This document shows, in pieces, positions 1 through 18,278 of a DNA stretch of 64,000 nt. The notes under the pieces are model-generated. The model did not search any database. It was not told the DNA's origin and worked only from the letters and a program-made list of their open reading frames with translations. The translations under genes and the position numbers were made by a program. This stretch comes from Rhizorhabdus phycosphaerae (GTDB lineage: Bacteria > Pseudomonadota > Alphaproteobacteria > Sphingomonadales > Sphingomonadaceae): NCBI RefSeq assembly GCF_011044255.1, contig NZ_CP049107.1:2939501-3003500 (forward strand). Direction: 5' to 3'. The first letter of the stretch is position 1. Each line of letters begins with the position of its first letter.

Positions 1-1227
1 GAAGCCGGCCAGACCATAGTCGCTGTCATTGGCGATCGCGACCGCCTCGTCTTCGTCGCGATAGGGCAGGATCGACAGGACGGGGCCGAAAATCTCCTCG
101 CGCGCGATCGTCATGTCCGGGCGCACGTCGGCGAACACGGTCGGGCGCACATAATAGCCGGCGTCGAAGCCGTCGGGCCGGCCCTCGCCGCCCGCGACCA
201 GCGCGGCACCTTCTGAAATGCCGATGCCGATCAGATGCTGGACCTTGGCCCACTGCGCCTCGGACACGACCGGACCCATCGCGCCGGGCTGCTCCTCCTG
301 GCCGATTGGGATGGCGGCGGCGGTTTCGGCGGCGATCGCCTTGGCTTCCTCCATGCGGTCTGCGGGGACGAGCATGCGCGTCGGTGCGCTGCAGGTCTGG
401 CCGCTATTGTTCATCACCGCGCGCACGCCGCGCGCGATGGCGAGCGGGAAATCCGCGTCGGGCAGGACGATATTGGCGGACTTGCCGCCCAGTTCCTGAT
501 GCACGCGCTTGATCGTCGGCGCCGCCGCCTGCGCGACCGCGATGCCCCCGCGCGTCGATCCGGTAAACGACACCATGTCGACCTGCGGGTGCGACGACAG
601 CGCCGCCCCGGCGGTGGGGCCGTCGCCCTGGATCAGATTGAAGACGCCGGCAGGAACGCCCGCCTCCTCGATGATCTGCGCGATGATTTCGGCGGAATAG
701 GGGGAAATCTCGGACGGTTTCAGCACCATCGTGCAGCCGACCGCCAGCGCCGGCGCCACCTTGGCCGCGATCTGGTTGGCGGGCCAGTTCCACGGCGTGA
801 TCAGTCCGCACACCCCGATCGGCTCGCGGCAGAGCGTCAGCCGCCCGTCCTCGCGTTCGAAGCGGAAATGCTCGATCTCTTCATAGGCGGTGCGGAAGTG
901 GATCAGGCCCAGCGGGGCGTGGGCGGCCCTGGCCAGCATGCGGGGCGCGCCCATCTCTGCGCTGATCACGGCGGCGATCTCGTCGAGGCGGCGTTCGTAG
1001 ATGGCGACGATCGCGCCGAGCAGGTCGCGCCGGTCCTTGCGCGACAGATCGGCAAAGGCATCGAAGGCGCGTCTTGCGGCGCGAACCGCGCGGTCGACAT
1101 CCTCTGCGCCTGCCGCACCGATCCGGCCGATGCTGCGCTCGGTGCGCGGGTCGAGCACGTCGATCGTCTGGCCTGACAATGCCTCGACCCATTGCCCGTC
1201 GATGTAGAAGCGGCCCGACATCACCAT
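1..1227 (-). CDS. Aldehyde dehydrogenase, NAD(P)-dependent (C-terminus outside window)
   Basis: Oxidises an aldehyde to the acid using NAD(P). The reading frame is open for 409 codons from the ATG at 1227 to the window edge. It shows the cofactor loop VSFTGSTRGG, the LGGKSANIVL segment and the catalytic cysteine in NNSGQTCSAPTR. The last visible residues, NDSDYGLAGF, are the usual C-terminal-third ALDH motif, so only about 70 residues are missing. An in-frame ATG at 1221 is an alternative start. It lies 92 nt downstream of the acyl-CoA dehydrogenase gene on the same strand and is probably the last visible gene of the catabolic operon. The substrate cannot be told from sequence. Confidence 0.93.
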   Translation of the reverse strand, partial: MVMSGRFYIDGQWVEALSGQTIDVLDPRTERSIGRIGAAGAEDVDRAVRAARRAFDAFADLSRKDRRDLLGAIVAIYERRLDEIAAVISAEMGAPRMLARAAHAPLGLIHFRTAYEEIEHFRFEREDGRLTLCREPIGVCGLITPWNWPANQIAAKVAPALAVGCTMVLKPSEISPYSAEIIAQIIEEAGVPAGVFNLIQGDGPTAGAALSSHPQVDMVSFTGSTRGGIAVAQAAAPTIKRVHQELGGKSANIVLPDADFPLAIARGVRAVMNNSGQTCSAPTRMLVPADRMEEAKAIAAETAAAIPIGQEEQPGAMGPVVSEAQWAKVQHLIGIGISEGAALVAGGEGRPDGFDAGYYVRPTVFADVRPDMTIAREEIFGPVLSILPYRDEDEAVAIANDSDYGLAGF

Positions 1228-1319
1228 GGTTCAAAATCCTTCCGACAGTCGCCGCCATGGCACGCGATTGCTGCCGGGCGGTCAATCACCATCTGGATAG
1301 GGCCGGCAGGGCGCCCGCT

Positions 1320-2501
1320 TCAACGGGCGTCGCCGCGCGGCTCCCTCGGCAGGCCGAGTCCGCGTTCGGCGATGATGTTGCGCTGGATCTGGTTGGTCCC
1401 GCCATAGATGGTGTCGGCGCGGCTCGACAGATAGAGGTTGGTCAGCAGCGGGAAGGCATAGCCCGGCTCTTCAGACACCAGAGCCTCCTCGCCGAGGATG
1501 TCCATCGCGAGCTCGCCCAGCGCCTGATGCCAATTGGCCCAATAGACCTTCTGCGTCATCGCCTCGCGCGACAGGCTGTGCCCCTCGCCGGCGGACAAGG
1601 TGCGCAGCGCGGTGTAGCGCATGATCTTGAGCCCGGCATAGGCACGCGCGATGCGGTCGCGGATGATCGGATCGCGATTGCGGCCGGTCGCCTTCGCCGC
1701 CTCCACCACCGCCTCGAACTCGGCGACGAAGCTCATCTGCTGGCCGAGCGTGCCGACACCGCGCTCGAAGGCCAGCAGCCCCATCGCGACCTGCCAGCCA
1801 TTGCCGATCCCGCCGACGACATTGTCGCGGTGTGTCCGCGCCCCGTCGAAGAAGGTCTCGTTGAACTCGGCCTCGCCGTTCATCTGCCGGATCGGTCGCA
1901 GCGTGATGCCGGGCTGGCGGATCGGGAGCAGCAGGAAGGACAGGCCCTTGGGCCCGCGCGACCCTTCTTCGGTCCGGGCGAGGACGAAGATCCAGTCGGC
2001 ATATTGGGCAAGGCTGGTCCAGATCTTGTGCCCGTCCACGACCCATTCGTCGCCTTCGAGCCGTGCCCGCGTCCGCACATTGCCGAGGTCGGAGCCGGCA
2101 CCCGGCTCCGAATAGCCCTGCGCCCAATATTCCTCGCCGCGCGCGATCGGCGGCAGGAAGCGGGCCTTCTGCGCGTCCGACCCGAAGTGGATCAGGGTCG
2201 GGCCGGCCAGTTCGATGCCGATATGGCTCATCCGGCCGGGGGCGCCCGCGCGGGCATATTCCTCGGCGAAGATCACCTGCTCGGCCAGGCTCGCGCCCCG
2301 TCCGCCATGCGCCTTGGGCCAGCCGATCACGCTCCAGCCGGCGGCGGCGAGCGCCTTTTCCCAGGCACGGCGCTCGTCGGCCATCGCGCTGTGGCTCTTC
2401 AGGTTGCGGAGCATGGCGAAGGGGCCGTGCATCTGCGTGGCCAGCCAGTCGGCGGCCTCGCGGCGGAATGCTTCCTGTTCGGGCGTGAAGCCGAGGCGCA
2501 T
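1320..2501 (-). CDS. Acyl-CoA dehydrogenase (large-type subunit)
   Basis: FAD-dependent alpha,beta-dehydrogenation of an acyl-CoA. The 393-residue protein has the standard ACAD layout. The flavin/substrate segment GYSEPGAGSDLGNVRTRA is followed by the beta-domain stretch WVVDGHKIWTSLAQYADWIF, and the C-terminal FAD-binding signature YGGTNQIQRNIIAERGLG is present. Its ATG shares one base with the stop of the upstream acyl-CoA dehydrogenase (TAATG at 2499-2503), so the two are translationally coupled. Adjacent dissimilar ACAD pairs are known to form heteromeric enzymes for bulky CoA esters such as steroid side chains; that is an inference here. Confidence 0.93.
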   Translation of the reverse strand: MRLGFTPEQEAFRREAADWLATQMHGPFAMLRNLKSHSAMADERRAWEKALAAAGWSVIGWPKAHGGRGASLAEQVIFAEEYARAGAPGRMSHIGIELAGPTLIHFGSDAQKARFLPPIARGEEYWAQGYSEPGAGSDLGNVRTRARLEGDEWVVDGHKIWTSLAQYADWIFVLARTEEGSRGPKGLSFLLLPIRQPGITLRPIRQMNGEAEFNETFFDGARTHRDNVVGGIGNGWQVAMGLLAFERGVGTLGQQMSFVAEFEAVVEAAKATGRNRDPIIRDRIARAYAGLKIMRYTALRTLSAGEGHSLSREAMTQKVYWANWHQALGELAMDILGEEALVSEEPGYAFPLLTNLYLSSRADTIYGGTNQIQRNIIAERGLGLPREPRGDAR

Positions 2502-3550
2502 TATTGGTCCTCCTCGTCGAGACCGAGCATCGTGGCGAGCCGCGCGCGGCTTTCGGCCGGCGTGCCGAACAAAGTCGCGGATCCGCGCGCGCGCTTGAAG
2601 AAAAGGTGTGCGTCATGCTCCCAGGTGAAGCCCATGCCGCCATGGAGCTGGATCGTCCCGGCGGCACAGTCCTCGAAGGTCTCGATCGCGGTGAAATGGG
2701 CGATGGCGGCGGCGCTTGCCGTCTCGGCGCTCGCTTCGTCATGCGAGGCCGCAGCATAATAGACCGCCGACCGCGCGGCTTCGACCGCGATCATCATGTC
2801 GGCCATGCGGTGCTTGAGCGCCTGGAAGCTCCCGATGGGACGGCCGAACTGAATGCGCTGCTGGCTATAGTCGACCGTCGCGGCCAGCGCAGCGTCGGCG
2901 CCGCCGACACATTCGGCTGCCAGCGCTACGCGCGCTTCGTCGAGCGCAGTCTCGATTCCGCCAGGGTTCGCCATCGCCTCCACCGGGGTGCGGTCGAAAT
3001 ATACGCGGGCAAGCGGTCGGGTCAGGTCCATGCTCGTCAGCTTCTTGACGTTGAGCCCCTCGGTCGGGACCAGCAGTGCCTGCCCGCCGGCCATCACAAC
3101 CAGCAGGTCTGCGACATGGCCGAAGGCGACCAGCGCTTCGCCGCTCAGCGCACCGTCCTCAAGGCGCAGCGTGTCGCCATGTGCCACGGCGGCAATGCTG
3201 TCGCCGGACGAGATGGCGGCGGCATGGCGCGCGAGTTGTTCGTCGGATCCGCAGTGCCGAAGCGCGGCCAGAGCCGCGCCTATGCTGGTGAGGAAGGGCG
3301 AAGGGAAAAGCGCGCGGCCCATCTCCGTCGCCACCAGCGACAGTTCGACCAGACCGAGCCCAGCGCCGCCTTGTTCGGCTGGCAGGACGAGCGAGCCGAG
3401 ACCAAGCTCTGCCGTAATGGTGCGCCATTGCGCGCGGTCGAAACCGTCGGGATGGTCGATGGTCGCGCGGAGGGACGGGCGGAAATCCGCCATGATGCCG
3501 CGTGCGGTCTCGGCGATCATCTCCTGTTCTTGGGTCAGGGCGAATTGCAT
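2501..3550 (-). CDS. Acyl-CoA dehydrogenase (small-type subunit)
   Basis: A second acyl-CoA dehydrogenase of 349 residues, starting MQFALTQEQEMIAETARG. The C-terminal ACAD signature is IQLHGGMGFTWEHDAHLFFK. It is shorter than its neighbour and its middle flavin region is degenerate (no GxSEPxAGSD motif), which fits the non-catalytic or FAD-poor partner of a heteromeric ACAD. The open frame extends upstream through the transporter gene, but this start is preferred because the ATG at 3550 overlaps the transporter stop by one base and matches the family N-terminus. It belongs to the minus-strand catabolic operon. Confidence 0.91.
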   Translation of the reverse strand: MQFALTQEQEMIAETARGIMADFRPSLRATIDHPDGFDRAQWRTITAELGLGSLVLPAEQGGAGLGLVELSLVATEMGRALFPSPFLTSIGAALAALRHCGSDEQLARHAAAISSGDSIAAVAHGDTLRLEDGALSGEALVAFGHVADLLVVMAGGQALLVPTEGLNVKKLTSMDLTRPLARVYFDRTPVEAMANPGGIETALDEARVALAAECVGGADAALAATVDYSQQRIQFGRPIGSFQALKHRMADMMIAVEAARSAVYYAAASHDEASAETASAAAIAHFTAIETFEDCAAGTIQLHGGMGFTWEHDAHLFFKRARGSATLFGTPAESRARLATMLGLDEEDQ

Positions 3551-4842
3551 CAGGCGTGTCCGTTGGAAAAGCGTTCGGCAAGGTCGGTTCGCGCGCGATC
3601 GACCGCGTGGGAGGCGCACCAGACGGCGATGGCCGCCGGCAGGCCGGTCAGGATGCACAGCGTCATCGCCAGACGTAGCCCGTCGGCATCGCCTGCACCG
3701 ATGAGGTCGCTCAGCGCACCGACTACATAGGGGCCGAACACCATCGCGATGAAGGTCGTCACGAAGGTGAACAAGGCAGTCGAGGTTGCGCGGATCGTCG
3801 GCGGCAGCATGTTCTGCAGCGCGGTCAGGACGCCGACCGACCAGCCCCCGCCGAGCAGACCCGAGGGGATGGCGACGAGCGTCGCGACTTCGATGCTGGG
3901 CGACCAGGTCACGCACAGGATCGCGACGGTTGCGGCAAACAGCGAGAGCCCGGCGAGACGCAGCGGCCAGCGATGATTGCGCTTCACCAGCCGGTCCGAC
4001 AGCGCGCCGAACAGCAAGGCTCCGACCAGCCCGGCCGGCCCGAAGGCGAGGCCGAAGCGGGCGCTGGCCTCGGCGGCCGGGATGTCGAAACTGCGGGCGA
4101 ACAGCGCCGGCCCCCACATGCCGAAGGCGTATCCGGAGAAGCTGCCGAAGGCCATGCCGAGATTGGCGAGGACATAGGCGGGCTGGGCCCACAGCGCGCG
4201 CAGGACGATCGGCAGGCGAACGGCCGCGGCCGGTGCAAAGCTTCGGGCGGGCTCGCTTACGGTCAGCCGCAGCAGTACCGCCATCACGATGCCGAAGAGG
4301 CCGAGCGCCACGAAGGCTGCGCGCCAGCCACCCAGCAGGTGCGCAATCGCCGGGCCGCCGGCATAGCCGCCGAGCTGGCCCAAGAAGATGCCGAGCGCCA
4401 ATATCCCGAACGCCGATCCGCGCCGCTCGGGCGGGAAGCGGTCGGCGAGCAGCGAATAGGCCGGCGCGACGAAGGAGGCTTCGCCGATGCCGACGCCGAC
4501 GCGCATCAGGGCGAGGGTCCAGCCGTCCTGGGCCAGGCCCGATAGCAAGGTGAACAGCGACCACAAAGCGCAGCCGACGGCGAGGATGGTGACACGGTGG
4601 CGGCGGTCGGCAAGGCGGGCGATCGGGATCGCCGCGACGGTGAACAGCAACGCGAAGGCCGGGCCCATCAAAAGACCGAGAAAGGCGTCCGACAGGCCGA
4701 AGCTGGCTTTGATCGGATCGCCCAAGCTGGTGATCAGATAGCGATCGGCATAGCTGAGCGTATAGACCGTGGTGAGCAGCAGCAGCGCATACCATGCCGT
4801 GCCGCCCGCCCGCGCCTGCCCCTCCATGCCCGGCCTTTCCAT
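3550..4842 (-). CDS. MFS transporter
   Basis: A major facilitator superfamily permease of 430 residues with about twelve hydrophobic segments. The loop LADRRHRVTILAVG between helices 2 and 3 is the MFS signature region, and an MGPAFALLF segment precedes it. It most resembles the spinster/hexuronate-like MFS proteins often found in sphingomonad catabolic clusters. Start and stop each overlap the neighbouring genes by one base (TGATG at 4840-4844 and at 3548-3552). It probably imports the pathway substrate or exports an intermediate. An internal ATG at 4826 is an alternative start. Confidence 0.92.
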   Translation of the reverse strand: MERPGMEGQARAGGTAWYALLLLTTVYTLSYADRYLITSLGDPIKASFGLSDAFLGLLMGPAFALLFTVAAIPIARLADRRHRVTILAVGCALWSLFTLLSGLAQDGWTLALMRVGVGIGEASFVAPAYSLLADRFPPERRGSAFGILALGIFLGQLGGYAGGPAIAHLLGGWRAAFVALGLFGIVMAVLLRLTVSEPARSFAPAAAVRLPIVLRALWAQPAYVLANLGMAFGSFSGYAFGMWGPALFARSFDIPAAEASARFGLAFGPAGLVGALLFGALSDRLVKRNHRWPLRLAGLSLFAATVAILCVTWSPSIEVATLVAIPSGLLGGGWSVGVLTALQNMLPPTIRATSTALFTFVTTFIAMVFGPYVVGALSDLIGAGDADGLRLAMTLCILTGLPAAIAVWCASHAVDRARTDLAERFSNGHA

Positions 4843-5954
4843 CAGGCGCGCTTCTGGCCGGGCTGCTCGTTCTGTTCGGCGTAGAATTGCTTGTAATAGC
4901 GGCGATAGCGGATGATCGGCCCGTCCCCGTCGCAGATGATCGCGTCGTGCAGATAGGCCTGCCGGTCCCAGATGACCTTGTCCTGGTCGAACTGCTTGCA
5001 GATGTCGCGGATCAGCGCGCGGGCAAGACCCGCCCCCGGACCCTCGGCCTGACTGCGCGGCTGGGTGAAGGCGAAGCGCGCATGGACGCAGTCACGATCG
5101 ATCGGTGTGATCGCCGCCACCAGCAGCGTCTCGGAGATGCCCTCGAAGCGGGTATAGGCTTGGCCCGGCCCGTTCTGGCCGTTGACGATCCGCCCGTCGA
5201 CCTCGCCTGCGGGCGTGCCCATCTTGGCCGACACGATGCCCGAGCGGCGATGGCCGTCCCAGTGGATCTCCGCATCGGGGAAATTGGCGGTGCCGTGGAC
5301 GAACTGGAAATGGGCACTGTCGACGCCATTCTCGGCCATCGACTGGAGCGGCGCATAGACGTGCCATTCGTGGCGTTGATAGGGGGTCCAGTCCGGATCG
5401 CTCGTCTCCGGATAATGGTCGAGTTCCCATTTCGGGGCCTCGCCAAAGGGGTGATACCAGGTCCAGATGAAGCCATTGGCTTCCTCGATGACCCATTGAT
5501 GCGCGCAGGGGCGCTTTACCTGCGGCGGGATGGCGCGGGCATAGGGGATGTCCTTGACGCTGCCGTCGCCGTCATAGCGCCAGGCGTGGAATGGGCATTC
5601 GAGCAGATTGCCGTTCACGCGTCCGCCATAGCCCATATGGGCGCCGAGATGCTTGCAATAGGCGTCGAGCAGCCGCGCCTTGCCGTCTTCGCCGCGCCAC
5701 AGCGCCAGCTCGCGCCCGAAATAGCGGACGGGCTTGACCTGGCCCGGCGCCAACTCGTCCGAATAGGCGACCGCGAACCAGCCGAGCGGGAAGGGCAGGT
5801 CGATGCCGCGCTCGTCGGCGCTGGGCCGGTTGCGGACCTCGGCGACGCGCCACTGCTGCAGCGCCTCGCCCTTCAGTTCGGAAAGCATCTGCCACACCGC
5901 GACGGGGGCGGTGCGGGCGTCGGTCGCGGTGGAGGCGGTCTGGCTGTCGGTCAT
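4842..5954 (-). CDS. Rieske-type non-haem iron oxygenase, alpha subunit (KshA-like)
   Basis: The terminal oxygenase of a ring-hydroxylating or ketosteroid-hydroxylase type system. The Rieske [2Fe-2S] ligands are in YCKHLGAHMG and LLECPFHAW (CxH...CxxH). The mononuclear iron ligands are in ENGVDSAHFQFVHG (D-x2-H-x4-H). The single-subunit C-terminal part resembles KshA more than benzoate-type dioxygenases. The start at 5954 (MTDSQTAS...) has a GAGGAGCG ribosome-binding site; the frame is open further upstream to 6041 without support. No reductase or ferredoxin gene is visible nearby, so the electron donor must be encoded elsewhere. Confidence 0.93.
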   Translation of the reverse strand: MTDSQTASTATDARTAPVAVWQMLSELKGEALQQWRVAEVRNRPSADERGIDLPFPLGWFAVAYSDELAPGQVKPVRYFGRELALWRGEDGKARLLDAYCKHLGAHMGYGGRVNGNLLECPFHAWRYDGDGSVKDIPYARAIPPQVKRPCAHQWVIEEANGFIWTWYHPFGEAPKWELDHYPETSDPDWTPYQRHEWHVYAPLQSMAENGVDSAHFQFVHGTANFPDAEIHWDGHRRSGIVSAKMGTPAGEVDGRIVNGQNGPGQAYTRFEGISETLLVAAITPIDRDCVHARFAFTQPRSQAEGPGAGLARALIRDICKQFDQDKVIWDRQAYLHDAIICDGDGPIIRYRRYYKQFYAEQNEQPGQKRA

Positions 5955-5964
5955 CGGACGCTCC

Positions 5965-6834
5965 TCAATCGAGTTGGAAGACGCGGCGGGCGTTTTCGTG
6001 CAGGAATTTGGGCCAGACATGGTCCTTGAACGGGACCGCATCCATGTCGGTGAAGATGCGCTCCAGGCTCAGGCCCATCGGAAAATAGCCGGCGTAGAGG
6101 ATCTTGTCGGCGCCGCGCGTGTTGGCGAAATCGATGATCGCCTTCGGGTAGTGCTTCGGCGCGAAGGCGCTCGTCGAATAATAGAGGTTGGGATATTTGA
6201 GCATCAGCTTGACCGCCAGCTCCTCCCAGGGCTCCGCCCCGTGGCGCATGACGAACTTGAGCTCGGGGAAGAAGTAGCAGACCTCGTCGACCAGCTCGAC
6301 ATGCTGCGGCGCCATCGGCACGCGCGGCCCGGGTACGCCGACATTGACGAGCACCGGAATGTCGAGCTCGCAGGCGGTGGTGTAGACCGGCCACATCCTT
6401 TTGTCGTTGATCGGCACCTGCGGCACGCAGCCACAGGGAAAGACGCTGATGGCCTTGATGCCGACCTCGGCATGGGCGCGGCGGATCGCGCGGATCACGT
6501 CGACGCCGCCATTGGGATCGACCGGCATGTCGAAGAAGAAGCGGTCGGCGAAGCGATCGCGCACGATGTCGTTGAGCGGCGACCCCTCGACATAGCCGAT
6601 GAGCGCCTTGGCGATGCCGAAGCGGTCCATCTCCGAAACCGTCCAGCCGGGCAGGTCGTCGATCCCGTCGGCATTGGGAATGTTGCGGAACATATATTGC
6701 GCCGGCATCGAGAATTGCGACAGGCTCTCCTTGTCGCGCAGCAGCGGCTTGAAGAAGTTGAACCAGTCGGAGCGGTCCTCCTTCAGGGGCACGCCCAGCA
6801 TCGTGTCGATGACCGGAATGTCGCGGGGTCGCAT
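5965..6834 (-). CDS. Amidohydrolase_2-fold protein lacking canonical metal ligands
   Basis: A 289-residue TIM-barrel protein of the amidohydrolase 2 / ACMS decarboxylase superfamily, starting MRPRDIPVIDTMLGVP with a GGAGAGG site upstream. The N-terminal HxH metal motif of the family is replaced by DTMLG, and the usual GSDxP near the C-terminus reads LYAGYFPMG. RHGAEPWEELAVKL is retained. It may be a metal-independent hydrolase or lyase, or a non-catalytic paralogue. It lies 10 nt upstream of the Rieske oxygenase and 20 nt downstream of the acyl-CoA synthetase in the same operon. Confidence 0.85.
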   Translation of the reverse strand: MRPRDIPVIDTMLGVPLKEDRSDWFNFFKPLLRDKESLSQFSMPAQYMFRNIPNADGIDDLPGWTVSEMDRFGIAKALIGYVEGSPLNDIVRDRFADRFFFDMPVDPNGGVDVIRAIRRAHAEVGIKAISVFPCGCVPQVPINDKRMWPVYTTACELDIPVLVNVGVPGPRVPMAPQHVELVDEVCYFFPELKFVMRHGAEPWEELAVKLMLKYPNLYYSTSAFAPKHYPKAIIDFANTRGADKILYAGYFPMGLSLERIFTDMDAVPFKDHVWPKFLHENARRVFQLD

Positions 6835-6854
6835 GGGGCCTCTCCTGTTTTCGT

Positions 6855-8477
6855 TTAGGCGTGGGCGGCGCGGAGCGCGCGCTTGTCGACCTTGCCCAGC
6901 GCGTTGCGCGGCAGGCCCTCGGCGGTCGTGAAGATCTCGGTCGGTATCTTGTAGTCGGCGATCCGGCCCGACAGGCTCTGGCGCACCTGGTCGGGATCGA
7001 CCGTCGCGCCGTCGCGGCCGCGCACGATCGCCACGAGCCGCTCGCCCAGCCGCTCGTGCGGCAGGCCGTAGGCGGCCGCCTCGACGATGTCGGGATGATG
7101 CTGCAACGCGGCCTCGACTTCGGCGCAATAGATGTTCTCGCCGCCGCACAGGACCATGTCGGTGAGCCGGTCGAGGATGGTGAGATTGCCGAGGTCGTCG
7201 AGCGCGCCGACGTCGCCGGTGTGGAACCATCCGTCGACGATCGCGCGTTCGGTGGCGGCAGTGTCGTTCCAGTATCCGGACATGACCATCGGGCCGCGAA
7301 CGAGGATCTGGCCGGCACCGCCCACCGGCTGGTCATTGCCATCGGCATCGACGATGCGGACCTCGGCGAGCGGCAGCACGCGTCCCGCCGCGCGGGGATG
7401 GGCGAGATAATCGGCGCCGGTGTGCATCGCCACCGCTCCGGCGGTCTCGGTCGATCCGAAGCCGGTGCCGACGATCGCGCGCGGAAAGGCCTCGACCACC
7501 GCGTTGAGCAGATTGATCGGCTGGGCCTGGCCGCCGGTCGACACCGACACGAGCGAGTCCAGCGCGGCGCCGAGCCGGGCCTTGGTGTGGACCAGATCCC
7601 AGATCATCGCGGGCGAACCCGACACGCTGTTGATCTTCTCGCGCTCGATCAGCCCGACGATGGCCTCGGGTTCCCAGCGGGCGGCGACGACCAGGCGTCC
7701 GCCGGATGCGAGGGCCGACAGGAAGGTCGCATGGCACCCGCTGACATGGAACAGCGGGAAGGCGAGCAGGGTCGTCTGCTGTGGGCGGGGGGCGCTTAGC
7801 GCATCCGGCCCGAAATGGCGGAGCGCGATGATGGCACCGGCCATCTGCGCGAGCAGCAGCCCGGTGAGCGCTGCGCGGTGCGACAGGGTCGCGCCCTTCG
7901 AGCGACCGGTGGTGCCCGATGTGAACAGGATCATCGCCGGTTCGTCGGGGCCGGCGGACGGACGCGGCAGCGCCGGGCCGCCCGCGCCGCCATCGATCTG
8001 GGGCACGAGGCAGGGCGTCGCGTCGCCGAGCATCGCGTCTCGGCGTTCGTCGACCAGGGTGAGGCGCGCGCCGACCAGATCTATCGTTGCGAGCATCTCG
8101 GAGGCGCTGCCCCGGCTGTTGACCAGCGCCGGTATGGCTCCGACAGCGATGGCGGCGAGGAAGGCGATCATCCAGTCGGGGCTGTTACGCATGGCAATGG
8201 CGACCCGGTCGCCTGCTGCGATGCCACGGTCCGAAAGCAGGCGCGCAAGCCGGCCCGCCGCCGCTTCGACGTCGCCGTAAGTCAGCCGCCGGTCGCCATC
8301 GACGATGAACTCGCGATCGCGAAAATGCGCGAGATTGTCGAGCAGCACGCCGAGATTGGTCTCGGCGCGCCGGAAGCCGCGCATCGCATGGCTGCCGACG
8401 GTGACGTCGATCAGCTCGAAGGGCGCCCCGGCAGATGTCAGCATCTGCACGAGATTATCGTTCGGTTCAGCCAACAT
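6855..8477 (-). CDS. AMP-dependent acyl-CoA synthetase/ligase
   Basis: Activates a carboxylic acid to its CoA ester via an acyl-adenylate. The 540-residue ANL-superfamily protein has the P-loop ILFTSGTTGRSKGATLSH. The adenylate motif is WFHTGDVGALDDLGNLTILD and the hinge/CoA region is TDMVLCGGENIYCAEVEAAL. The catalytic lysine is in PRNALGKVDKRAL at the C-terminus. It is the first gene of the minus-strand catabolic operon. Its ATG lies 37 nt downstream of the palindrome at 8514-8527, a candidate TetR operator. The substrate is probably an aliphatic or cyclic acid from the same pathway; specificity is not readable. Confidence 0.94.
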   Translation of the reverse strand: MLAEPNDNLVQMLTSAGAPFELIDVTVGSHAMRGFRRAETNLGVLLDNLAHFRDREFIVDGDRRLTYGDVEAAAGRLARLLSDRGIAAGDRVAIAMRNSPDWMIAFLAAIAVGAIPALVNSRGSASEMLATIDLVGARLTLVDERRDAMLGDATPCLVPQIDGGAGGPALPRPSAGPDEPAMILFTSGTTGRSKGATLSHRAALTGLLLAQMAGAIIALRHFGPDALSAPRPQQTTLLAFPLFHVSGCHATFLSALASGGRLVVAARWEPEAIVGLIEREKINSVSGSPAMIWDLVHTKARLGAALDSLVSVSTGGQAQPINLLNAVVEAFPRAIVGTGFGSTETAGAVAMHTGADYLAHPRAAGRVLPLAEVRIVDADGNDQPVGGAGQILVRGPMVMSGYWNDTAATERAIVDGWFHTGDVGALDDLGNLTILDRLTDMVLCGGENIYCAEVEAALQHHPDIVEAAAYGLPHERLGERLVAIVRGRDGATVDPDQVRQSLSGRIADYKIPTEIFTTAEGLPRNALGKVDKRALRAAHA

Positions 8478-8513
8478 CCTCTCCTTGGCCCTGAGGGCTC
8501 GATATTAGTTATT

Positions 8514-8527
8514 TGGACTATAGTCCA
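8514..8527. promoter_or_regulatory. Candidate TetR operator, copy 1 (TGGACTATAGTCCA)
   Basis: A perfect 14-bp palindrome in the 59-nt gap between the tetR stop and the acyl-CoA synthetase start. It shares the half-sites TGGAC-N4-GTCCA with the element at 9272-9285 in front of tetR. Its position, 37 nt before the first operon gene, suits repression of the seven-gene operon. Confidence 0.7.
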
Positions 8528-8536
8528 TAAAAATTG

Positions 8537-9229
8537 TCAGGTATAATTTTCTGGCCTCGGCGGCAGGGGAGCGCGCTCCGGAAAGGGGGTGCCGGGTGCG
8601 ATCATCGTCGCCAGCAGGCGCGCCACCACATCGAGCCGGTTTGCCGCCGGATGTGCCTCGTCCATCCGCCAGGCGTGAATGACGCCCATATAGGTCTGGG
8701 CGATGATCTCCCCGGCCACGGCGCTGTCGAGATGCGGCGACAGATCGCCACCATGGCGCCCGTCGTCGAGCAGGGCGGTGAAGGCATCGACCACCCGCTG
8801 GATGCGCTGCTGGTTGCCCGGCAGCCCCCAGTTTCGCCAGGACATGCTCAGCACCACCCGCCTGCGCGCCGGGGCGCGTCGCAGATAATGGTCGGTCGCG
8901 GCGAACAGGCCCGCGATCTTCTCGACCGTGGTCAGATGCGTCGCCCGGCGCCAGCCCTCGATCGCGACGAAGAAGCCGGCATCATTCTCGGCCACCAGCG
9001 CGTCGATGATGTCGTTCTTGCTGGGGAAATAGTTGAACAATGTCGCGCGCGCGACGTCGGCGGCAGCGGCGATCTGGTCCATGGTCGCTGCCTGCACGCC
9101 GGATTCGGCCATGCAACTGATGCTCGCCTCGAGAATGGCGGTCCGGGTCCGCGCCTTGTTGCGCTCGCGGCGAGACATGTCGGGCGGCAGCGAATCCTCG
9201 TCCACAGCCGCCACCGATTTCCGCGCCAT
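8537..9229 (-). CDS. TetR-family transcriptional regulator
   Basis: A one-component repressor of 230 residues. The TetR N-terminal HTH spans roughly residues 18-65, with TRTAILEASISCMAESG, the recognition region ATMDQIAAAADVARATLFNY and FPSKNDIIDALV. The C-terminal ligand domain is variable. The ATG at 9229 is chosen because it gives a normal N-terminal arm; the frame is open to 9469 but upstream codons cross the likely promoter. It sits between the acyl-CoA operon and the divergent TonB receptor. Matching palindromes lie on both sides, so it likely controls the operon, itself and perhaps the receptor, with a pathway CoA ester as inducer (inference). Confidence 0.93.
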   Translation of the reverse strand: MARKSVAAVDEDSLPPDMSRRERNKARTRTAILEASISCMAESGVQAATMDQIAAAADVARATLFNYFPSKNDIIDALVAENDAGFFVAIEGWRRATHLTTVEKIAGLFAATDHYLRRAPARRRVVLSMSWRNWGLPGNQQRIQRVVDAFTALLDDGRHGGDLSPHLDSAVAGEIIAQTYMGVIHAWRMDEAHPAANRLDVVARLLATMIAPGTPFPERAPLPPRPENYT

Positions 9230-9271
9230 TCGTTCCGCTCCGTCAAAACCGATGGCGTGGATAGCATATGT

Positions 9272-9285
9272 TGGACGATGGTCCA
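9272..9285. promoter_or_regulatory. Candidate TetR operator, copy 2 (TGGACGATGGTCCA)
   Basis: The half-sites TGGAC and GTCCA are separated by four bases, the same architecture as the element at 8514-8527. It lies 43 nt upstream of the tetR ATG and 160 nt upstream of the divergent TonB receptor, suggesting autoregulation and possible joint control of the receptor. Confidence 0.68.
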
Positions 9286-9444
9286 TCTTTCGATTGCTGC
9301 ACCAACGACGGCTCGCTTCCATTAAGCCGCAGTCGGCGCACAGCCGCCGCGTTCCCTGCATAACTTGTGGCGGTGGAATGCTGTTCTCTTCCACCCAAGG
9401 GAATGGGTCCACCGCGATGCGGGGGCCGGAGAAGGGGACAGATA

Positions 9445-11844
9445 ATGACCAAGGGATGGAATCCGGCATTTCACGTCATGGGTGCGGTGGTCGCCGCGCT
9501 GGCCCTGCCCGCACAGGCGCAGACGACCGGTGGACCGGGTGGCGAGGTGCAGTCATCGCGGGCCGATCTGCTCGGCGAGGGCGACATCATCGTCACCGCG
9601 CGCAAGCGCGAGGAGCGTGCGCAGGACATTCCCATCGCGATGTCGGCGTTCAGCGGCGAGTCGCTGGCGGCGCGCGGTCTCGACAAGGTGGACGGCATCG
9701 CCACCTTCACCCCCAACCTGACCTTCCAGAACAACCCCAGCTTCGGTGGGGCGAGCTCGTCCGCAGCGATCTACATTCGCGGCATCGGCCAGAAGGAGTT
9801 CCTTCCCACCACCGAGCCGGGGGTCGGCGTCTATGTCGACGGCGTCTATGTGGCGCGCTCGGTGGGCGCGCTGCTCGACCTGGTCGATGTCGAGCGGATC
9901 GAGGTTCTGCGTGGACCGCAGGGAACGCTGTTCGGGCGCAACACCATTGGCGGCGCGCTGAACCTGACGACCGTCAAGCCGCGCGACCGGCTGGAGGCAT
10001 CGGCACAGGTCACCACTGGCCGCTATAGCCGCTTCGACGTGAAGGGGATGATCAATGTTCCGCTCGGCGAGACGCTTGCGGCGCGCCTGTCGGTCGGAAG
10101 CTTCATCCGCGACGGCTATGTCACCCGCACCTCGGACAAGAAGGATCTGGGCAATGTGAACACCCAGACGGGTCGGCTTCAGCTCCGCTGGACGCCCTCC
10201 TCCGATTTCGAGGTGAACATCGCGGTCGAGGGGACCGACGATCGCAGCAACGGCCCGGCGCTGACGCTGTCCGGCATCGATTATCGTTCGGCAGTGTTCA
10301 ATCCGCAGGGGCTGCCGATGCTGCCGCCCGGCAGCCCGGCCACGCCCGGCTCCTATGTGATCAATCCGCCGTTCGACGCCCCGGTCGACAATTTTGCGTT
10401 GCTGAACAACTATATCGCGACCTTCCTTGGCGGTCAGAACTGCCTGGGCTTCAACCCCTACAGCCCGAAGGGCATCGGCGCGGCCTGCTATGGCGATCAA
10501 TATGTCAGCCGCACGACCGATGCGGGCACCGCGCCGCAATATTCGCGCAACAAGATCTGGGCGGCCAGCGGTACCATCGAATGGAACCTCGGCGCGGCCA
10601 AGCTCAAGTCGATCACCGCCTATCGCCATCTGAAGGGCCGCTTCGCGCGCGACGGCGACCATTCGCCGCTGACGATCACCCATTTCTTCGACAGCCTGAC
10701 CGACGAGCAGTTCAGCCAGGAGGTTCAGCTGACCGGCGACGCCTTCGCCGATCGGGTCAAATATGCGGTCGGCGCCTATTATTTCGACGAGACCGGCAAC
10801 AATGTGAACATCCTCGATTTCACGCCGGTCAATTTCCAGTCGGGTGGTCGCTTCAAGACGCGCAGCTATGCCGCCTTCGGCCAGGCCACGGTCAAGCTGA
10901 CCGACAGCCTCGATCTGACCGCCGGGCTTCGCTACACCAAGGACGACAAGAGCTTCCTGCCCGACCAGACGATCTTCGTCGACCGGACGCCCGGCGCGCA
11001 GCTGATCGCTGGCAGCCCCAATACGCCGAAGACGCGTGTGCTGCCTTTCGTTCGGGTGAAGCGGAGCGAGGACGACCTGACCCCGATGGTCAATCTCGCC
11101 TGGAAGCCGGCCGACCGACTGATGCTCTACGGCTCCTTCTCGCGCGGTTTCAAGAGCGGGGGCTTCGTGCAGCGCGTGTTCCCGCCCCTGGCGGCGACAC
11201 CCGAATATGGTGCGGAGACGGCCTCGGCGTTCGAGGCGGGCTTCAAGTCCGAGCTGCTCGACCGTCGCCTGACGCTCAACGGCGCCGTATTCCTGACCAA
11301 ATATAATGACCTGCAGGTCCAGGTCTTCACCGGCGTGGCTCCCGTCACGAAGAATGCCGCGCGGGCGGAGATCAAGGGCGCCGAACTCGAGGCGCGCCTT
11401 TCGCCCGGCGGCGGCTTCTTCGTCGAGGCGAGCGCCGGCTATCTCGATCCGGCCTATACCTCGATCGATCCGGCCGCGACCGAGATCACCCGCGCCTCGA
11501 AGTTCGAGCGCATCTCCAAATGGACGCTCAGTGCCTCGCTGCTGAAAAGCTTCGAGCTTCCGGGCGGCGGCGAGATCACACCACGCCTCGACTGGTCCTA
11601 TCGGTCGGGCTTCTTCATGGACGCGCTCAACACGGCAGAGCTCTATCAGGGCGGCTATCATCTGCTGAACGGTTCGGTCGCCTGGGACCTGCCCGGCCGC
11701 TCGATCAGCATCGTTGCGGGCGTCACCAACATCACCAGCGAACGCTATACCCAGACCGGAATCTACGGCGCGTCCTTCCGGGTCTACGAGCAGCTCTTCG
11801 CGCGTCCGCGCGAATGGTATCTGACCGCGAAGTGGAAGATGTGA
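9445..11844 (+). CDS. TonB-dependent outer-membrane receptor
   Basis: A 799-residue TonB-dependent transporter of the sphingomonad carbon-substrate type. The signal peptide (MTKGWNPAFHVMGAVVAALA, cleaved after QAQ) is followed by a plug domain with IIVTARKREERAQDIPIA, YIRGIGQKEF and RIEVLRGPQGTLFGRNTIGG. A 22-strand barrel follows, ending in the aromatic/hydrophobic REWYLTAKWKM. The ATG at 9445 has a GGAGAAGGGG site. It is divergent from tetR and shares the operator-bearing spacer. It probably imports the hydrophobic substrate of the neighbouring catabolic genes; the ligand is unknown. Confidence 0.93.
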   Translation: MTKGWNPAFHVMGAVVAALALPAQAQTTGGPGGEVQSSRADLLGEGDIIVTARKREERAQDIPIAMSAFSGESLAARGLDKVDGIATFTPNLTFQNNPSFGGASSSAAIYIRGIGQKEFLPTTEPGVGVYVDGVYVARSVGALLDLVDVERIEVLRGPQGTLFGRNTIGGALNLTTVKPRDRLEASAQVTTGRYSRFDVKGMINVPLGETLAARLSVGSFIRDGYVTRTSDKKDLGNVNTQTGRLQLRWTPSSDFEVNIAVEGTDDRSNGPALTLSGIDYRSAVFNPQGLPMLPPGSPATPGSYVINPPFDAPVDNFALLNNYIATFLGGQNCLGFNPYSPKGIGAACYGDQYVSRTTDAGTAPQYSRNKIWAASGTIEWNLGAAKLKSITAYRHLKGRFARDGDHSPLTITHFFDSLTDEQFSQEVQLTGDAFADRVKYAVGAYYFDETGNNVNILDFTPVNFQSGGRFKTRSYAAFGQATVKLTDSLDLTAGLRYTKDDKSFLPDQTIFVDRTPGAQLIAGSPNTPKTRVLPFVRVKRSEDDLTPMVNLAWKPADRLMLYGSFSRGFKSGGFVQRVFPPLAATPEYGAETASAFEAGFKSELLDRRLTLNGAVFLTKYNDLQVQVFTGVAPVTKNAARAEIKGAELEARLSPGGGFFVEASAGYLDPAYTSIDPAATEITRASKFERISKWTLSASLLKSFELPGGGEITPRLDWSYRSGFFMDALNTAELYQGGYHLLNGSVAWDLPGRSISIVAGVTNITSERYTQTGIYGASFRVYEQLFARPREWYLTAKWKM

Positions 11845-11856
11845 CGCAGGCGTTGC

Positions 11857-11889
11857 GCGCCGGCGGGAATCGTGAAACCCTGCCGGCGC
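11857..11889 (+). terminator. GC-rich hairpin after TonB receptor
   Basis: GCGCCGGC-GGG pairs with CCC-T-GCCGGCGC, an 11-bp stem with one bulge and a loop of about 10 nt, just after the receptor stop. No T-tract follows, so factor-independent termination is uncertain. Confidence 0.4.
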
Positions 11890-11931
11890 TGATTGCAGGA
11901 GCATAACCGACCATCTGACGGGGATCGAACC

Positions 11932-12909
11932 ATGCTGGGCATCAATCCGCCTTCACTCGCGGCGCATCGCTATTTCCGCTCGATCGACGTCGACGAGACG
12001 CGCGAAAAAGTGTCGAAGGTCTATTGCTCGCATCGTCTCGATCCCATCGGGGGCACGGGCCGCCTGGATGCTTGGCAGAACAGCGTGGCGCTCGACCGGA
12101 TCAGCGTGGGGATGATGAGCTATGGCGCGGACGTCGAGATCGACCCCGGCTGCCTGGAGGATTTCTATCTGTTGATGCTGCCGGTCGCCGGCAGCGCCAC
12201 GATTACCTCCGAGGGCAACAGCTTCCGCGCAGACCGGGCGACGGCGACGCTGCTCAACCCCACCGACCCGGTCCGCATGGTCTGGGATCAGGCTTGCACC
12301 AAGGCGATGGTGCGGATCGAGCGCGACGCGCTCGAACAGCAGCTGGCGATATTGCTCGACAAGCCGATCCGCGCGCCCGTTCGCTTCGCCACGACGATGC
12401 CGATGGAAGGAACCGTCGCGATCTGGTGGCAATATGTCGCCGCGCTGATGGGAGAGCTCGACCGCGCGACGCCGGCGCGCGCTACCACGCGCCAGCTCGA
12501 GGCGCTGCTGCTCACCAATCTGCTGGAAACCCAGCCGCACAATTATTCGGAGGCGCTGCAGCGCGGCGGCTGCGCGATCGCGCCGCGCCATGTCCGCCTC
12601 GTCGAACGCTATATCGAGGAACATGCCGACGAGCCGATCGACATGGCCCGCCTCGTCGCCGTCAGCGGCGTCAGCAGCCGGACATTGTTCGAAGGCTTTC
12701 AGCGCTTCCGCGACATCTCTCCCATGGCCTATCTGCGGCTGACCCGGCTTCGCCGCGTCCATGAGGAACTGACCAGCGCGCCGCTGCCGCTCGGCGTCGC
12801 GGATGTCGCCAGCCGCTGGGGCTTTTACGAGCTCGGCCGCTTCGCCGGCCAGTATCGCTCGCTGTTCGGCGAGACCCCGTCCGAGACGCTGCGCCGCCGC
12901 GCCAGCTGA
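11932..12909 (+). CDS. AraC-family transcriptional regulator
   Basis: A 325-residue AraC/XylS-type regulator. The N-terminal half resembles the AraC-binding-like sensor domain (about residues 20-200). The C-terminal double HTH (about residues 220-322) contains IDMARLVAVSGVSSRTLFEG and VADVASRWGFYELGRFAGQY, ending FGETPSETLRRR. It lies 87 nt after the TonB receptor and 122 nt before the monooxygenase operon, all on the plus strand. It most likely activates one or both in response to a pathway compound. The start at 11932 (MLGINPPSLAAH) is preferred over the longer open frame. Confidence 0.9.
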   Translation: MLGINPPSLAAHRYFRSIDVDETREKVSKVYCSHRLDPIGGTGRLDAWQNSVALDRISVGMMSYGADVEIDPGCLEDFYLLMLPVAGSATITSEGNSFRADRATATLLNPTDPVRMVWDQACTKAMVRIERDALEQQLAILLDKPIRAPVRFATTMPMEGTVAIWWQYVAALMGELDRATPARATTRQLEALLLTNLLETQPHNYSEALQRGGCAIAPRHVRLVERYIEEHADEPIDMARLVAVSGVSSRTLFEGFQRFRDISPMAYLRLTRLRRVHEELTSAPLPLGVADVASRWGFYELGRFAGQYRSLFGETPSETLRRRAS

Positions 12910-13031
12910 AGCCCGTTTCCGGTGCGAGCGGCGCGAAACGTTGCCGCACTCAGCGGACAATCTCGGCAGTGCGCGCATAACGCTCCCGGCAGCGCCGCCC
13001 TAGCCTGTCTCCCAGGAATATGGGGAGACGC

Positions 13032-14540
13032 ATGGTTCACGACATCGCGATCATCGGGGCGGGGCTCGCGGGACTGAGCACCGCCAAGACGCTCAGGCAG
13101 TTCGGCTTCGAGGTTACCGTCTTCGAAAAGGAGGCGGATATCGGCGGCGTGTGGTCGGCATCGCGGCGCTATCCGGGACTGACGACGCAGAACCCGCGCG
13201 AGACCTATGCCTTTTCCGACTGGCCGATGCCGGCCGACTATCCCGAATGGCCGACCGGCGCGCAGGTCCAGGCCTATCTGGAAACCTATGTCGACCATTT
13301 CGGCCTGCGCAGTTCGATCCGTCTCGGGCGCGAGGTCACCGCCGCCCGGCCGGTGGGCGACGGCAGCGGCCAGTGGACGATCGAGAGCCGCTCGGTCGCC
13401 GACGGCAGCGTCGAGACCCGGACCTTCGACTATCTGATCGTCTGCAACGGCATCTTTTCTATCCCCGCCATTCCGCCCTATCCGGGCAGCGACGCCTTTC
13501 GTGAGGCGGGCGGGCAGATTCTCCATACGAGCCAGTTCACCGATCCGGAGATCGCGCGGGGGCGCAATCTGCTGGTGGTGGGCTATGGCAAGTCGTCCTG
13601 CGACGTGGCGCGTGCCTGCTTGGAGGTCGCTGCTTCGACCCGTGTCGTCGCGCGCAGCATCATCTGGAAGATTCCCAAGAAGCTCGCCAACAAGCTCAAC
13701 TTCAAGCACCTCTTCCTCAATCGCCTGGGCGAGGGGCTGTTCCGCTATATCGAGGTCAGGGGCTTCGAGCGCTTCTTGCACGGCCCCGGCAAGCCGATTC
13801 GCAATGCGATGATGAACAGCGTGCAGGGCGTCATTGCCCGGCAGCTGCGGTTGAAGGAGATCGGACTGGAGCCGGACGGTAAGCTCGAGACGATCGCCCG
13901 CAGCACCGTCAGCCTCGTTACCGACGGCTTTTACGAGGCGATCGGCGACGGGCGCATCGGCTTCCACCGTGGCGAGATCGCCGAGCTTTCGCCGGGGCAG
14001 GCGCGCCTGTCCGATGGCCGCACCGTTCCCGCCGACGTCATCATCTGCGGGACCGGCTGGCACCAGCGCTGCGACTTCCTCGATCGGGAGGTTCTGTCGA
14101 AGGTCACCGACGACCGCGGCAATTTCCGCCTCTACCGGTCGATGCTCCCGCTCGGCGTGCCGGGGCTGGCCTTCAACGGCTACAACTCTTCCTTCTTCAG
14201 CCAGCTCAATGCCGAGGTCAGCGCGCTGTGGATCGCCAATATGCTGGTGGGGGGCCTCGTTTTGCCGCCCGAGGCAGAACAGCGCCGCTATATCGATAGC
14301 CGGCTCGCCTGGATGGAACAGCGCACCAACGGCAAGCACTCGAAGGGGACCAACATCATCCCCTTCTCGGTTCACCATATGGATGAGCTACTGGCCGAAA
14401 TCGACCTGCGGCTGCCGCTGCTGACGCGCATTCGGCAGTGGTTCGTGTCGATCGACGCCGCCGAATATGCCGGCCTGCTGCCGCGCCTGCTCAAGCGCCA
14501 CGGCCGCCCCCTTTCCACGACCAGCACCGGGAGAAAATGA
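13032..14540 (+). CDS. Flavin-containing monooxygenase
   Basis: A class B-type FAD/NADPH monooxygenase of 502 residues. The FAD Rossmann motif IAIIGAGLAGLSTA is at the N-terminus. HTSQFTD lies where the FMO/BVMO fingerprint falls, and the NADPH motif VVGYGKSSCDVA follows. The full BVMO fingerprint FxGxxxHxxxW is not evident, so N/S-oxygenation, Baeyer-Villiger chemistry or another oxidation all remain possible. The start at 13032 (MVHDIAIIG) has a GGGGAG site at 13021-13026; 13020 is an alternative. Its stop overlaps the SDR start (ATGA), so the trio is co-translated. Confidence 0.9.
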   Translation: MVHDIAIIGAGLAGLSTAKTLRQFGFEVTVFEKEADIGGVWSASRRYPGLTTQNPRETYAFSDWPMPADYPEWPTGAQVQAYLETYVDHFGLRSSIRLGREVTAARPVGDGSGQWTIESRSVADGSVETRTFDYLIVCNGIFSIPAIPPYPGSDAFREAGGQILHTSQFTDPEIARGRNLLVVGYGKSSCDVARACLEVAASTRVVARSIIWKIPKKLANKLNFKHLFLNRLGEGLFRYIEVRGFERFLHGPGKPIRNAMMNSVQGVIARQLRLKEIGLEPDGKLETIARSTVSLVTDGFYEAIGDGRIGFHRGEIAELSPGQARLSDGRTVPADVIICGTGWHQRCDFLDREVLSKVTDDRGNFRLYRSMLPLGVPGLAFNGYNSSFFSQLNAEVSALWIANMLVGGLVLPPEAEQRRYIDSRLAWMEQRTNGKHSKGTNIIPFSVHHMDELLAEIDLRLPLLTRIRQWFVSIDAAEYAGLLPRLLKRHGRPLSTTSTGRK

Positions 14541-15334
14541 TGGGACAGCATGAAGGCCGCGTGGCCATCGTCACCGGGGGCGCCGCATCGATCGGCGCCG
14601 CGATCACCCGCAAGCTCCACGCCGAGGGCGCGACCGTGCTCGTCGCCGCGCGCAGCGTCGACAAGGGGAGGGCGATCGAAACCGAACTCGGCGCCCGGGC
14701 CCGCTTCGTCGCGACCGACATCACCGACGACGCCGCGCTCGCGGCGCTGGTCGACGCCGCCGTCTCGGGCTTCGGCCGGCTCGACATCCTCGTCAACAAT
14801 GCGTGCAGCTATGGCGACGAAGGCCCCGCGACATCGCGGGCGACCTGGCTCGAGACGCTCAACGTGTCGGCGGTCTCTGCGGCTATTCTCGGCGAGCTCG
14901 CGCGCCCGCATCTGGCTGCGGCCGGGGGCACGATTGTCAATATCGGTTCGGTCTCGGGCGTGTTCCCGCATGTCGGCCGCTGGGCCTATCCGGTCGCCAA
15001 GGCTGCGCTGCGCCACCTGACCAAGGCGCAGGCGCTCGACTATGCCGCCGACGGCATCCGCGTGAACATGGTCACCCTCGGCCATATCTGGTCCGATCCG
15101 TTCGACGGGCTGACCGCAGGCGACCGCGCCCATGCCGACGCGGTGTCGGCCGATCTCAACCTGCTCGGCCGGGTCGCCGATGCGGCCGAAGTGGCCGAGG
15201 TGGTGAGCTTCGTCGCCTCGGCCGCGGCCAGCTACATGACTGGCAGCGAGACGAACGTCGACGGAGGCTATGGCGTCCTCGGACCCGAACGGCGTATCCC
15301 GCTGATGCCGCTGCTGTCGGGCGCGCACGGATGA
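14537..15334 (+). CDS. Short-chain dehydrogenase/reductase (SDR)
   Basis: An NAD(P)-dependent alcohol/ketone oxidoreductase of 265 residues. The cofactor motif is VAIVTGGAASIGAAI, with DILVNNA after it. The catalytic serine is in NIGSVSG and the Tyr-Lys pair in WAYPVAKAAL. A classical C-terminus with ETNVDGGYGV is present. Double ATG codons at 14537 and 14540 both follow a GGGAG site. It overlaps the monooxygenase by 4 nt and the downstream oxidoreductase by 4 nt, so the three enzymes probably act on one substrate series. Confidence 0.93.
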   Translation: MMGQHEGRVAIVTGGAASIGAAITRKLHAEGATVLVAARSVDKGRAIETELGARARFVATDITDDAALAALVDAAVSGFGRLDILVNNACSYGDEGPATSRATWLETLNVSAVSAAILGELARPHLAAAGGTIVNIGSVSGVFPHVGRWAYPVAKAALRHLTKAQALDYAADGIRVNMVTLGHIWSDPFDGLTAGDRAHADAVSADLNLLGRVADAAEVAEVVSFVASAAASYMTGSETNVDGGYGVLGPERRIPLMPLLSGAHG

Positions 15335-16917: not shown

Positions 16918-16921
16918 CGAG

Positions 16922-16955
16922 AAGGGGGCGCCACGCAGATGTGGGACGGCCCCTT
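16922..16955 (+). terminator. Possible terminator after the FMO-SDR-oxidoreductase operon
   Basis: AAGGGGGC pairs imperfectly with GGCCCCTT across a loop of about 18 nt, starting five bases after the operon stop. Only a short T run follows, so this is a weak candidate. Confidence 0.35.
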
Positions 16956-17037
16956 TCGTCCCTCGTGGTAGGCGAATATAAGTGGCCTGTCCGATAGCGA
17001 CCATTGCAGACGTTAGGTGTGTTGCTAATCTGGTCGG

Positions 17038-17292
17038 ATGAATGGGGGGTATCAGTCCGGCGGTTCGGCTGGTGGTCGATGGGGCTGTGCTTTGGCTGCA
17101 TTGGTGGGCTTACCCGTGCTCGGCCTAGCCATTCTCGTGAGTGCCCTTGGAGATTGCGCCCCGGACACGCCGTGTAATCATGACTTGGATTGGCTTCTAA
17201 TTTTAGCCGCGCTAGCTATAGCAGCCTCGGTCGGCTTCGGTAGTCGCGCTCTGATCAACTGGGCGATCCGCCGCTGTTCTCAAGGCCGCTAA
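17038..17292 (+). CDS. Small two-helix membrane protein, unknown function
   Basis: An 84-residue predicted inner-membrane protein. Hydrophobic segments lie at about residues 16-36 (CALAALVGLPVLGLAILVSA) and 52-70 (WLLILAALAIAASVGFGS). A short loop between them holds two cysteines (CAPDTPC). No family was recognised. It is the first gene of an AT-richer stretch that also holds two immunity-like genes, suggesting an acquired island. A clear ribosome-binding site is not visible, so the start is uncertain. Confidence 0.55.
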   Translation: MNGGYQSGGSAGGRWGCALAALVGLPVLGLAILVSALGDCAPDTPCNHDLDWLLILAALAIAASVGFGSRALINWAIRRCSQGR

Positions 17293-17407
17293 CCACCCCG
17301 TTGCGGCCATAGAAGAGCCTAACGCCGTTTTCCTAACAGCTGACATGCGGCTTTAGACATTTCGTCGCCCGAACCTGCCATTCATCCACCGACCCCATTG
17401 CGGTCCT

Positions 17408-17797
17408 TCACGCCGTTATCGGGGTAACTCGCATGCACTGGAGTGCCGACGCCATGCCGGTAAAACTATAAGCTGGGTCAATCCCGTCCACTGCCATTGT
17501 GAAGGTATCGAGATAGCCCCGATAGTTCCGTCCTTCCCAGCACCAGCCGAGCCGCCGGGCAACAATCGCTTGAAGCTGTTCCAGCGTCTGCCATCCCGCA
17601 CGCGCATCGCCAAAAGGCTCAAGAGATACAATCACTTCATCTGTATCGTCATTCACCCGCAGGATCACTGCTGACGACCCCACTACCAAAGCGATCTCCT
17701 CGCATTCGAGCCTTCCGTCACTCAACCCGCGTACGCCTTTGGCAACCACCGCCTCCACGGTAGCGCCCTGAACTTCTTCCCAGTCGAATTGGAGCAT
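17408..17797 (-). CDS. Small conserved protein, DUF6334-like
   Basis: A 129-residue soluble acidic protein starting MLQFDWEEVQG. ATG at 17815 and TTG at 17821 are alternative starts. The C-terminal part GWCWEGRNYRGYLDTFTMAV and the ending resemble proteins I recall as DUF6334. These are small stand-alone proteins sometimes near polymorphic-toxin immunity genes; this comes from memory of the family and was not checked. It is encoded opposite to the neighbouring Imm27-like gene, in a region of lower GC than its surroundings. Confidence 0.62.
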   Translation of the reverse strand: MLQFDWEEVQGATVEAVVAKGVRGLSDGRLECEEIALVVGSSAVILRVNDDTDEVIVSLEPFGDARAGWQTLEQLQAIVARRLGWCWEGRNYRGYLDTFTMAVDGIDPAYSFTGMASALQCMRVTPITA

Positions 17798-17840
17798 GGT
17801 TGCCGGATTACACATCTGCAAAATCTAGCGGCGAGAAAAG

Positions 17841-17902: not shown

Positions 17903-17985
17903 TGCTATCCTGCCCTTTCGGCCGAAAGCAGAATTCCCACTCCCGACCCCATGGCAGACTTTCGCGACAGCTGTTATTTTGCCAC

Positions 17986-18276: not shown

Positions 18277-18278
18277 GT

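Follow-up and report, generated by a model that had tools for sequence, protein, structure and literature searches.

Predicted TetR operators at a putative steroid-type side-chain degradation operon of Rhizorhabdus phycosphaerae and their conservation in Sphingomonadaceae

In Rhizorhabdus phycosphaerae, a tetR gene is flanked by two palindromes of the same form, TGGAC-N4-GTCCA, one on the side of a seven-gene operon and the other on the side of a gene for a TonB-dependent receptor. Does the TetR protein whose gene they enclose use these palindromes as its operators and, if so, what might it control? The window referred to below is the whole stretch of 64,000 nucleotides that was analysed, and the features that matter for the question are the following.

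1..1227, minus strand: aldehyde dehydrogenase, operon gene 7, continuing left of the window (whole gene, L021:10809-12227)
1320..2501, minus strand: acyl-CoA dehydrogenase (Scd4A-like), operon gene 6
2501..3550, minus strand: acyl-CoA dehydrogenase (Scd4B/IpdE2-like), operon gene 5; IpdE2 is the nearest for the small dehydrogenase
3550..4842, minus strand: MFS transporter, operon gene 4, by profile match
4842..5954, minus strand: KshA-like Rieske oxygenase, operon gene 3, 61-63% identical to oxygenases of Lrp-type clusters
5965..6834, minus strand: member of the Amidohydrolase_2 family, operon gene 2, sharing 62-66% identity with amidohydrolases from bile-salt-type clusters
6855..8477, minus strand: acyl-CoA synthetase, operon gene 1; best NCBIfam model steroid-24-oyl-CoA synthetase CasG, below cut-off
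8514..8527, no strand: candidate operator O2, TGGACTATAGTCCA, between the tetR stop and operon gene 1
8537..9229, minus strand: tetR, 230 aa, predicted repressor (Pfam TetR_N, 52 bits; TetR-like model)
9272..9285, no strand: candidate operator O1, TGGACGATGGTCCA, upstream of tetR and facing the divergent TonB-receptor gene
9445..11844, plus strand: TonB-dependent receptor, divergent from tetR, a possible further target of O1

Both 14-mers described in the first-pass annotation are found exactly at these positions, and the seven-gene operon that it proposed is borne out, its last gene extending past the left end of the window. O2, in the gap between tetR and the synthetase gene, is separated by 9 nt from the stop codon of the former and by 36 nt from the ATG of the latter, and O1 is 42 nt 5' of the tetR ATG and 159 nt 5' of the ATG of the divergent receptor gene. 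The tetR start codon is a judgement, because the reading frame stays open farther upstream; it was set by where the protein of the closest relative begins. No other exact match to TGGAC-N4-GTCCA occurs in the window. A scan of the genome (4,327,794 bp, one contig), the check that had been suggested for the motif, returned four places compared with two for the reversed-pattern control, so that the motif is not abundant at random positions. The remaining two copies are inside a glycosyltransferase-like ORF and a 475-aa ORF. For the extended pattern WTGGACN4GTCCAW, O1 and O2 are the only exact matches in the whole genome, and with one mismatch there are seven genomic sites, six of them in ORFs with coding-type composition and the seventh at locus L032. 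The sister form TAGAC-N4-GTCYA is present in two places, both within ORFs. Since the other exact and sister-form sites fall in ORFs, as do the one-mismatch sites except L032, a dispersed regulon was rejected, and genome-wide the predicted regulon appears to be the tetR locus alone. A sigma-70 scan at O1 and O2 recognised no good promoter at either site.

The protein itself has the domain and the predicted fold of a TetR-family repressor. Its N-terminal helix-turn-helix matches PF00440 well above the cut-off of 24 bits, and the predicted structure is a confident all-helical TetR fold with a C-terminal ligand-binding domain (pLDDT 87.8). The model is close to SmeT (Z 19.5) and to Thermus FadR (Foldseek E 3.6e-6), and the nearest solved structures include FadR-acyl-CoA complexes, SmeT, TtgR and steroid-bound MtrR. 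With KstR/KstR2 and FadR, which act in cholesterol and fatty acid catabolism, it shares the TetR fold and the acyl-CoA catabolic context, but it falls far below the cut-offs of both families (35.6 bits against 280 for the NCBIfam KstR equivalog, 41 against 200 for the equivalog of Bacillus-type FadR). The operator sequences of KstR/KstR2 and FadR also differ from TGGAC-N4-GTCCA. Another relevant regulator is EdcR, the TetR repressor of estradiol degradation in Caenibius tardaugens, which has palindromic operators, TnnCnnTACnAnTnGTAnnGnnA (PMC8700777). EdcR likewise governs a steroid cluster in a sphingomonad, but its operator is different and its C-terminal domain, TetR_C_11, is not detected in the window TetR. 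The cluster is accessory, because this TetR is present in only 2 of the 14 genomes of the genus.

Orthologues of the TetR protein were compared at four loci. One of them, L025 (92% identity), belongs to a metagenome-assembled genome of Rhizorhabdus, and the others come from three further genera of the same family (G244, 58%; G057, 58%; G084, 54%); apparently the same 41,827-base contig as that of L025 turns up again in the window's genus as L035/L072. No further orthologues were found at strict cut-offs in order- and class-wide samples, and a TetR search on named plasmids found nothing. The synthetase gene follows tetR in all four loci, and in the three longer ones the amidohydrolase, the Rieske oxygenase and both dehydrogenases are also downstream. 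Between tetR and the synthetase gene the palindrome is always present, once with a single mismatch. In an ungapped comparison the arms of the sites are 90-100% identical and the 45-bp flanks 20-44%, except in the closest pair, where the tetR-side flank reaches 71%. Upstream of tetR, the palindrome is also found in L025 and G057. Because the two other orthologues have no upstream site, autoregulation would not be universal, although at the window locus TetR probably does regulate its own gene. Could the two copies simply be unrelated palindromes? Isolated copies do arise by chance, as indicated by the four genomic and two reversed-control matches. However, the two non-coding copies stand on either side of a single gene, and the same arrangement is seen again in other genera, where the surrounding DNA mostly shows no more than background identity; this leaves coincidence with next to no probability.

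The relationship extends to more distant proteins. We took 20 homologous TetR proteins (31-100% identity) and looked for the motif from 20 bp before to 150 bp after the tetR stop. Exact TRGAC-N4-GTCYA is present there in 16 of the 20, and 300 dinucleotide-preserving shuffles of the same stretches gave none, although the 16 are not independent events because the homologues are related by descent. Upstream of tetR the same form occurs in 4 of the 20, again with none in the shuffles. The R/Y degeneracy was chosen after the distant sites had been seen; the TGGAC form had been fixed beforehand by the first-pass annotation and holds in the orthologues. Two of the four homologues that lack the TRGAC form have TGAAC-N4-GTTCA at the same place; the other two (L010 and L054) have neither form near the tetR stop. 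In the set of 22 sites, position 2 is occupied by G or A and position 3 almost always by G; the invariance of the remaining letters is partly a product of the pattern search that supplied the sites. In the protein alignment, the subfamily keeps the recognition-helix region (A/S)RxTLF, which fits a shared operator core with dialects. The TGAAC dialect, the third one, is found in L059 near 12198 and in L064 near 2883, in each case after a related tetR gene with no more than a distant Rieske gene in its neighbourhood. In L059, apparently from the C. tardaugens genome, TAGACATTGGTCCA at position 9940 is about 2 kb from a related TetR gene and 1 kb from a Rieske gene, and it is possibly a further regulon member.

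It might be argued that the sites are bound by a different protein, such as the AraC-type regulator whose gene (11932-12909) lies nearby, downstream of that for the TonB receptor. Yet the motif accompanies the TetR subfamily across genomes, and among the fetched loci an AraC gene is beside the tetR of the closest relative only. A short symmetric palindrome is also better suited to a TetR dimer than to AraC, which prefers direct repeats. We regard a different regulator as very improbable.

Homologous enzyme clusters that carry a different regulator provide a negative control. Bile-salt side-chain clusters such as that of Sphingobium Chol11 encode SclA, an amidohydrolase, a Rieske monooxygenase and Scd4AB (PMC8399759, PMC12175502). 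We analysed five clusters of this type on named Novosphingobium and Sphingobium plasmids (L073-L077, about 17 kb each). They share with the window the order ligase, amidohydrolase, Rieske oxygenase, and their enzymes are 44-66% identical to those of the window, but they differ in having paired Lrp/AsnC regulators in place of a TetR, in lacking the TRGAC motif and in carrying an amidase gene that is absent from the window's operon. Paired Lrp/AsnC genes and no annotated TetR are seen in the four annotated clusters; the fifth (PP1Y), a locus without annotation, has the same enzymes. Neither motif form occurs in any of the five over their approximately 17 kb. In the Rieske oxygenase tree, the TAGAC-TetR type and the Lrp type are apart from each other with strong support, and both are also separate from the four TGGAC-TetR rows, which join at an open fork. 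In these comparisons, then, the motif tracks the regulator rather than the enzymes.

This bears on yet another possibility, namely that the palindromes act at the RNA level, as hairpins of weak intrinsic terminators downstream of tetR or ahead of the operon. It is true that O2 and the majority of homologous sites sit just past the tetR stop, that a terminator scan picks O1 with T-rich DNA behind it on the plus strand, and that A-tracts precede and T-tracts follow some of the homologous sites. However, folding of O1 and O2 as RNA on both strands is no better than that of shuffles (z -0.5 to -1.1), and an Rfam search of window positions 1-20000 gave no match; on these grounds the hairpin reading was rejected. 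Moreover, the arm letters themselves, not merely their pairing, are conserved across divergent genomes, the motif is found upstream of tetR as well, and it is missing from the homologous clusters without TetR. Taken together, this makes a terminator role very unlikely. The first-pass annotation had taken the palindromes as strongly suggesting a specific operator, and its view is supported by the conservation, by the co-occurrence with the TetR subfamily and by the absence from the Lrp/AsnC-linked clusters.

What does the operon degrade? The CoA ligase, amidohydrolase, Rieske oxygenase and paired acyl-CoA dehydrogenases that make up the bsd I/Chol11 set are all present together. The synthetase scores 380 bits with CasG against a cut-off of 750, and C. 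tardaugens SclA itself scores only 420. Five KshA_C oxygenases are encoded in the window's genome; in 14 control genomes no protein exceeds the cut-off. Because of the gene set match and these five oxygenases, a steroid-like carboxylic acid is the likely substrate, although it may instead be a terpenoid or other polycyclic acid. The description of the cluster as uncharacterised thus needs qualification: being homologous to sphingomonad bile-salt side-chain clusters, it is not wholly so, and its predicted regulon appears to be the locus alone. A second KshA-like Rieske oxygenase, 43% identical to that of the operon, is encoded to the left of the window (L021:3653-4657), about 7 kb beyond the operon end, with MFS and other genes.

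The role of the TonB receptor is less convincing. O1 does face the receptor gene, as originally described, but among the compared loci this arrangement is common only to L025/L072, the relative with 92% identity, and in G057 a GroEL-like gene occupies the place upstream of tetR. The receptor as a conserved target was accordingly rejected, and control of it by O1 is possible but weakly supported. The receptor gene is followed on the plus strand (11932-16917) by a row of genes for an AraC-type regulator (nearest AndR), a flavin monooxygenase-like protein, an SDR and a phytoene-dehydrogenase-like protein, kept in L025 at 95-98% identity. Farther along the same strand (34434-47660), a row encoding a ShlB/FhaC-type outer-membrane protein, a 1036-aa TPR/CHAT-domain protein and a 2720-aa ORF resembles a two-partner secretion system with a CHAT protein.

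The best-studied relative, and one of the closest known, is the bsd I cluster of C. tardaugens, which encodes the TetR EGO55_16300 and is induced by cholate; its amidohydrolase gene is reported to be induced by cholate approximately 21-fold, and ATAGGGCCATTG and GCATGCGGGATGC have been put forward as candidate operators of the TetR (PMC12882949). By sequence, our locus L068 is this cluster. Its gene order is as reported, with an MFS or other gene, TetR, amidohydrolase, Rieske oxygenase, two acyl-CoA dehydrogenases and ligase, followed by a 157-aa ORF (in the paper, a MaoC-like hydratase) and an alpha/beta hydrolase. Both published 12-13-base palindromes are present (L068:2128 and L068:7269) in the two gaps named, each in the opposite gap from that stated, and both are absent from all fetched loci of other genomes. 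L068 also has a perfect TAGACTTAAGTCTA 52 bp after the tetR stop, just 5' of the amidohydrolase gene. Like the window, bsd I thus has a TetR (34% identical) followed by an amidohydrolase, a Rieske oxygenase, two acyl-CoA dehydrogenases and a CoA ligase, with TAGACTTAAGTCTA as the candidate operator palindrome between tetR and the first enzyme gene. It differs in that the arms are TAGAC rather than TGGAC, there is no site upstream of tetR, the ligase gene is last and no MFS gene lies within the operon. Because the footprint conserves the motif of TAGACTTAAGTCTA and not the published strings, we predict TAGACTTAAGTCTA to be the true bsd I operator, and the published ones look wrong.

As a rule, TetR-family dimers repress at their sites until a pathway ligand lifts the repression. 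Here, palindromes stand beside the regulator's own gene and the operon, O1 and O2 are rare in the genome, their placement is conserved and they go together with one TetR subfamily. All this points to O1 and O2 as a real, locally acting TetR operator pair, and we consider it very likely that they are the operators of the TetR encoded between them, repressing tetR and the operon until a steroid-type acid or CoA thioester binds. A TetR dimer on TGGAC-N4-GTCCA at O1 would repress its own gene and a dimer on O2 the downstream operon, from the CoA ligase through the aldehyde dehydrogenase. A steroid-type carboxylic acid, or the CoA thioester made from it by operon gene 1, would occupy the TetR pocket, and the ligand-bound repressor would then leave O1 and O2, allowing the enzymes of side-chain degradation to be produced. 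It is reasonable to expect a hydrophobic acid or its CoA ester as the ligand because the nearest structures include the complexes with acyl-CoA and steroid named above together with SmeT and TtgR.

An operator pair of this type is in itself ordinary. The new elements are the motif and the finding that it is conserved across a TetR subfamily associated with steroid-type side-chain clusters, neither of which was found in the literature searched. It is tempting to go one step further, and we think it probable that a single TetR subfamily with the code TRRAC-N4-GTYYA controls several steroid-type side-chain lineages in Sphingomonadaceae, with TGGAC, TAGAC and TGAAC as dialects that track clades; the published C. 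tardaugens bsd I operators would then be wrong, and the motif offers a testable correction to them. The dialect series, with a near-identical recognition helix and G or A at positions 2 and 3, represents a natural set for studying change of TetR specificity, and the TetR with its operator could serve as a component of a steroid-acid biosensor. For the sphingomonad side-chain degradation pathway, in which the Rieske oxygenase and amidohydrolase steps are still unsettled and ideas about regulation have so far been no more than guesses, the analysis provides a concrete predicted operator that lends itself to testing with short DNA probes.
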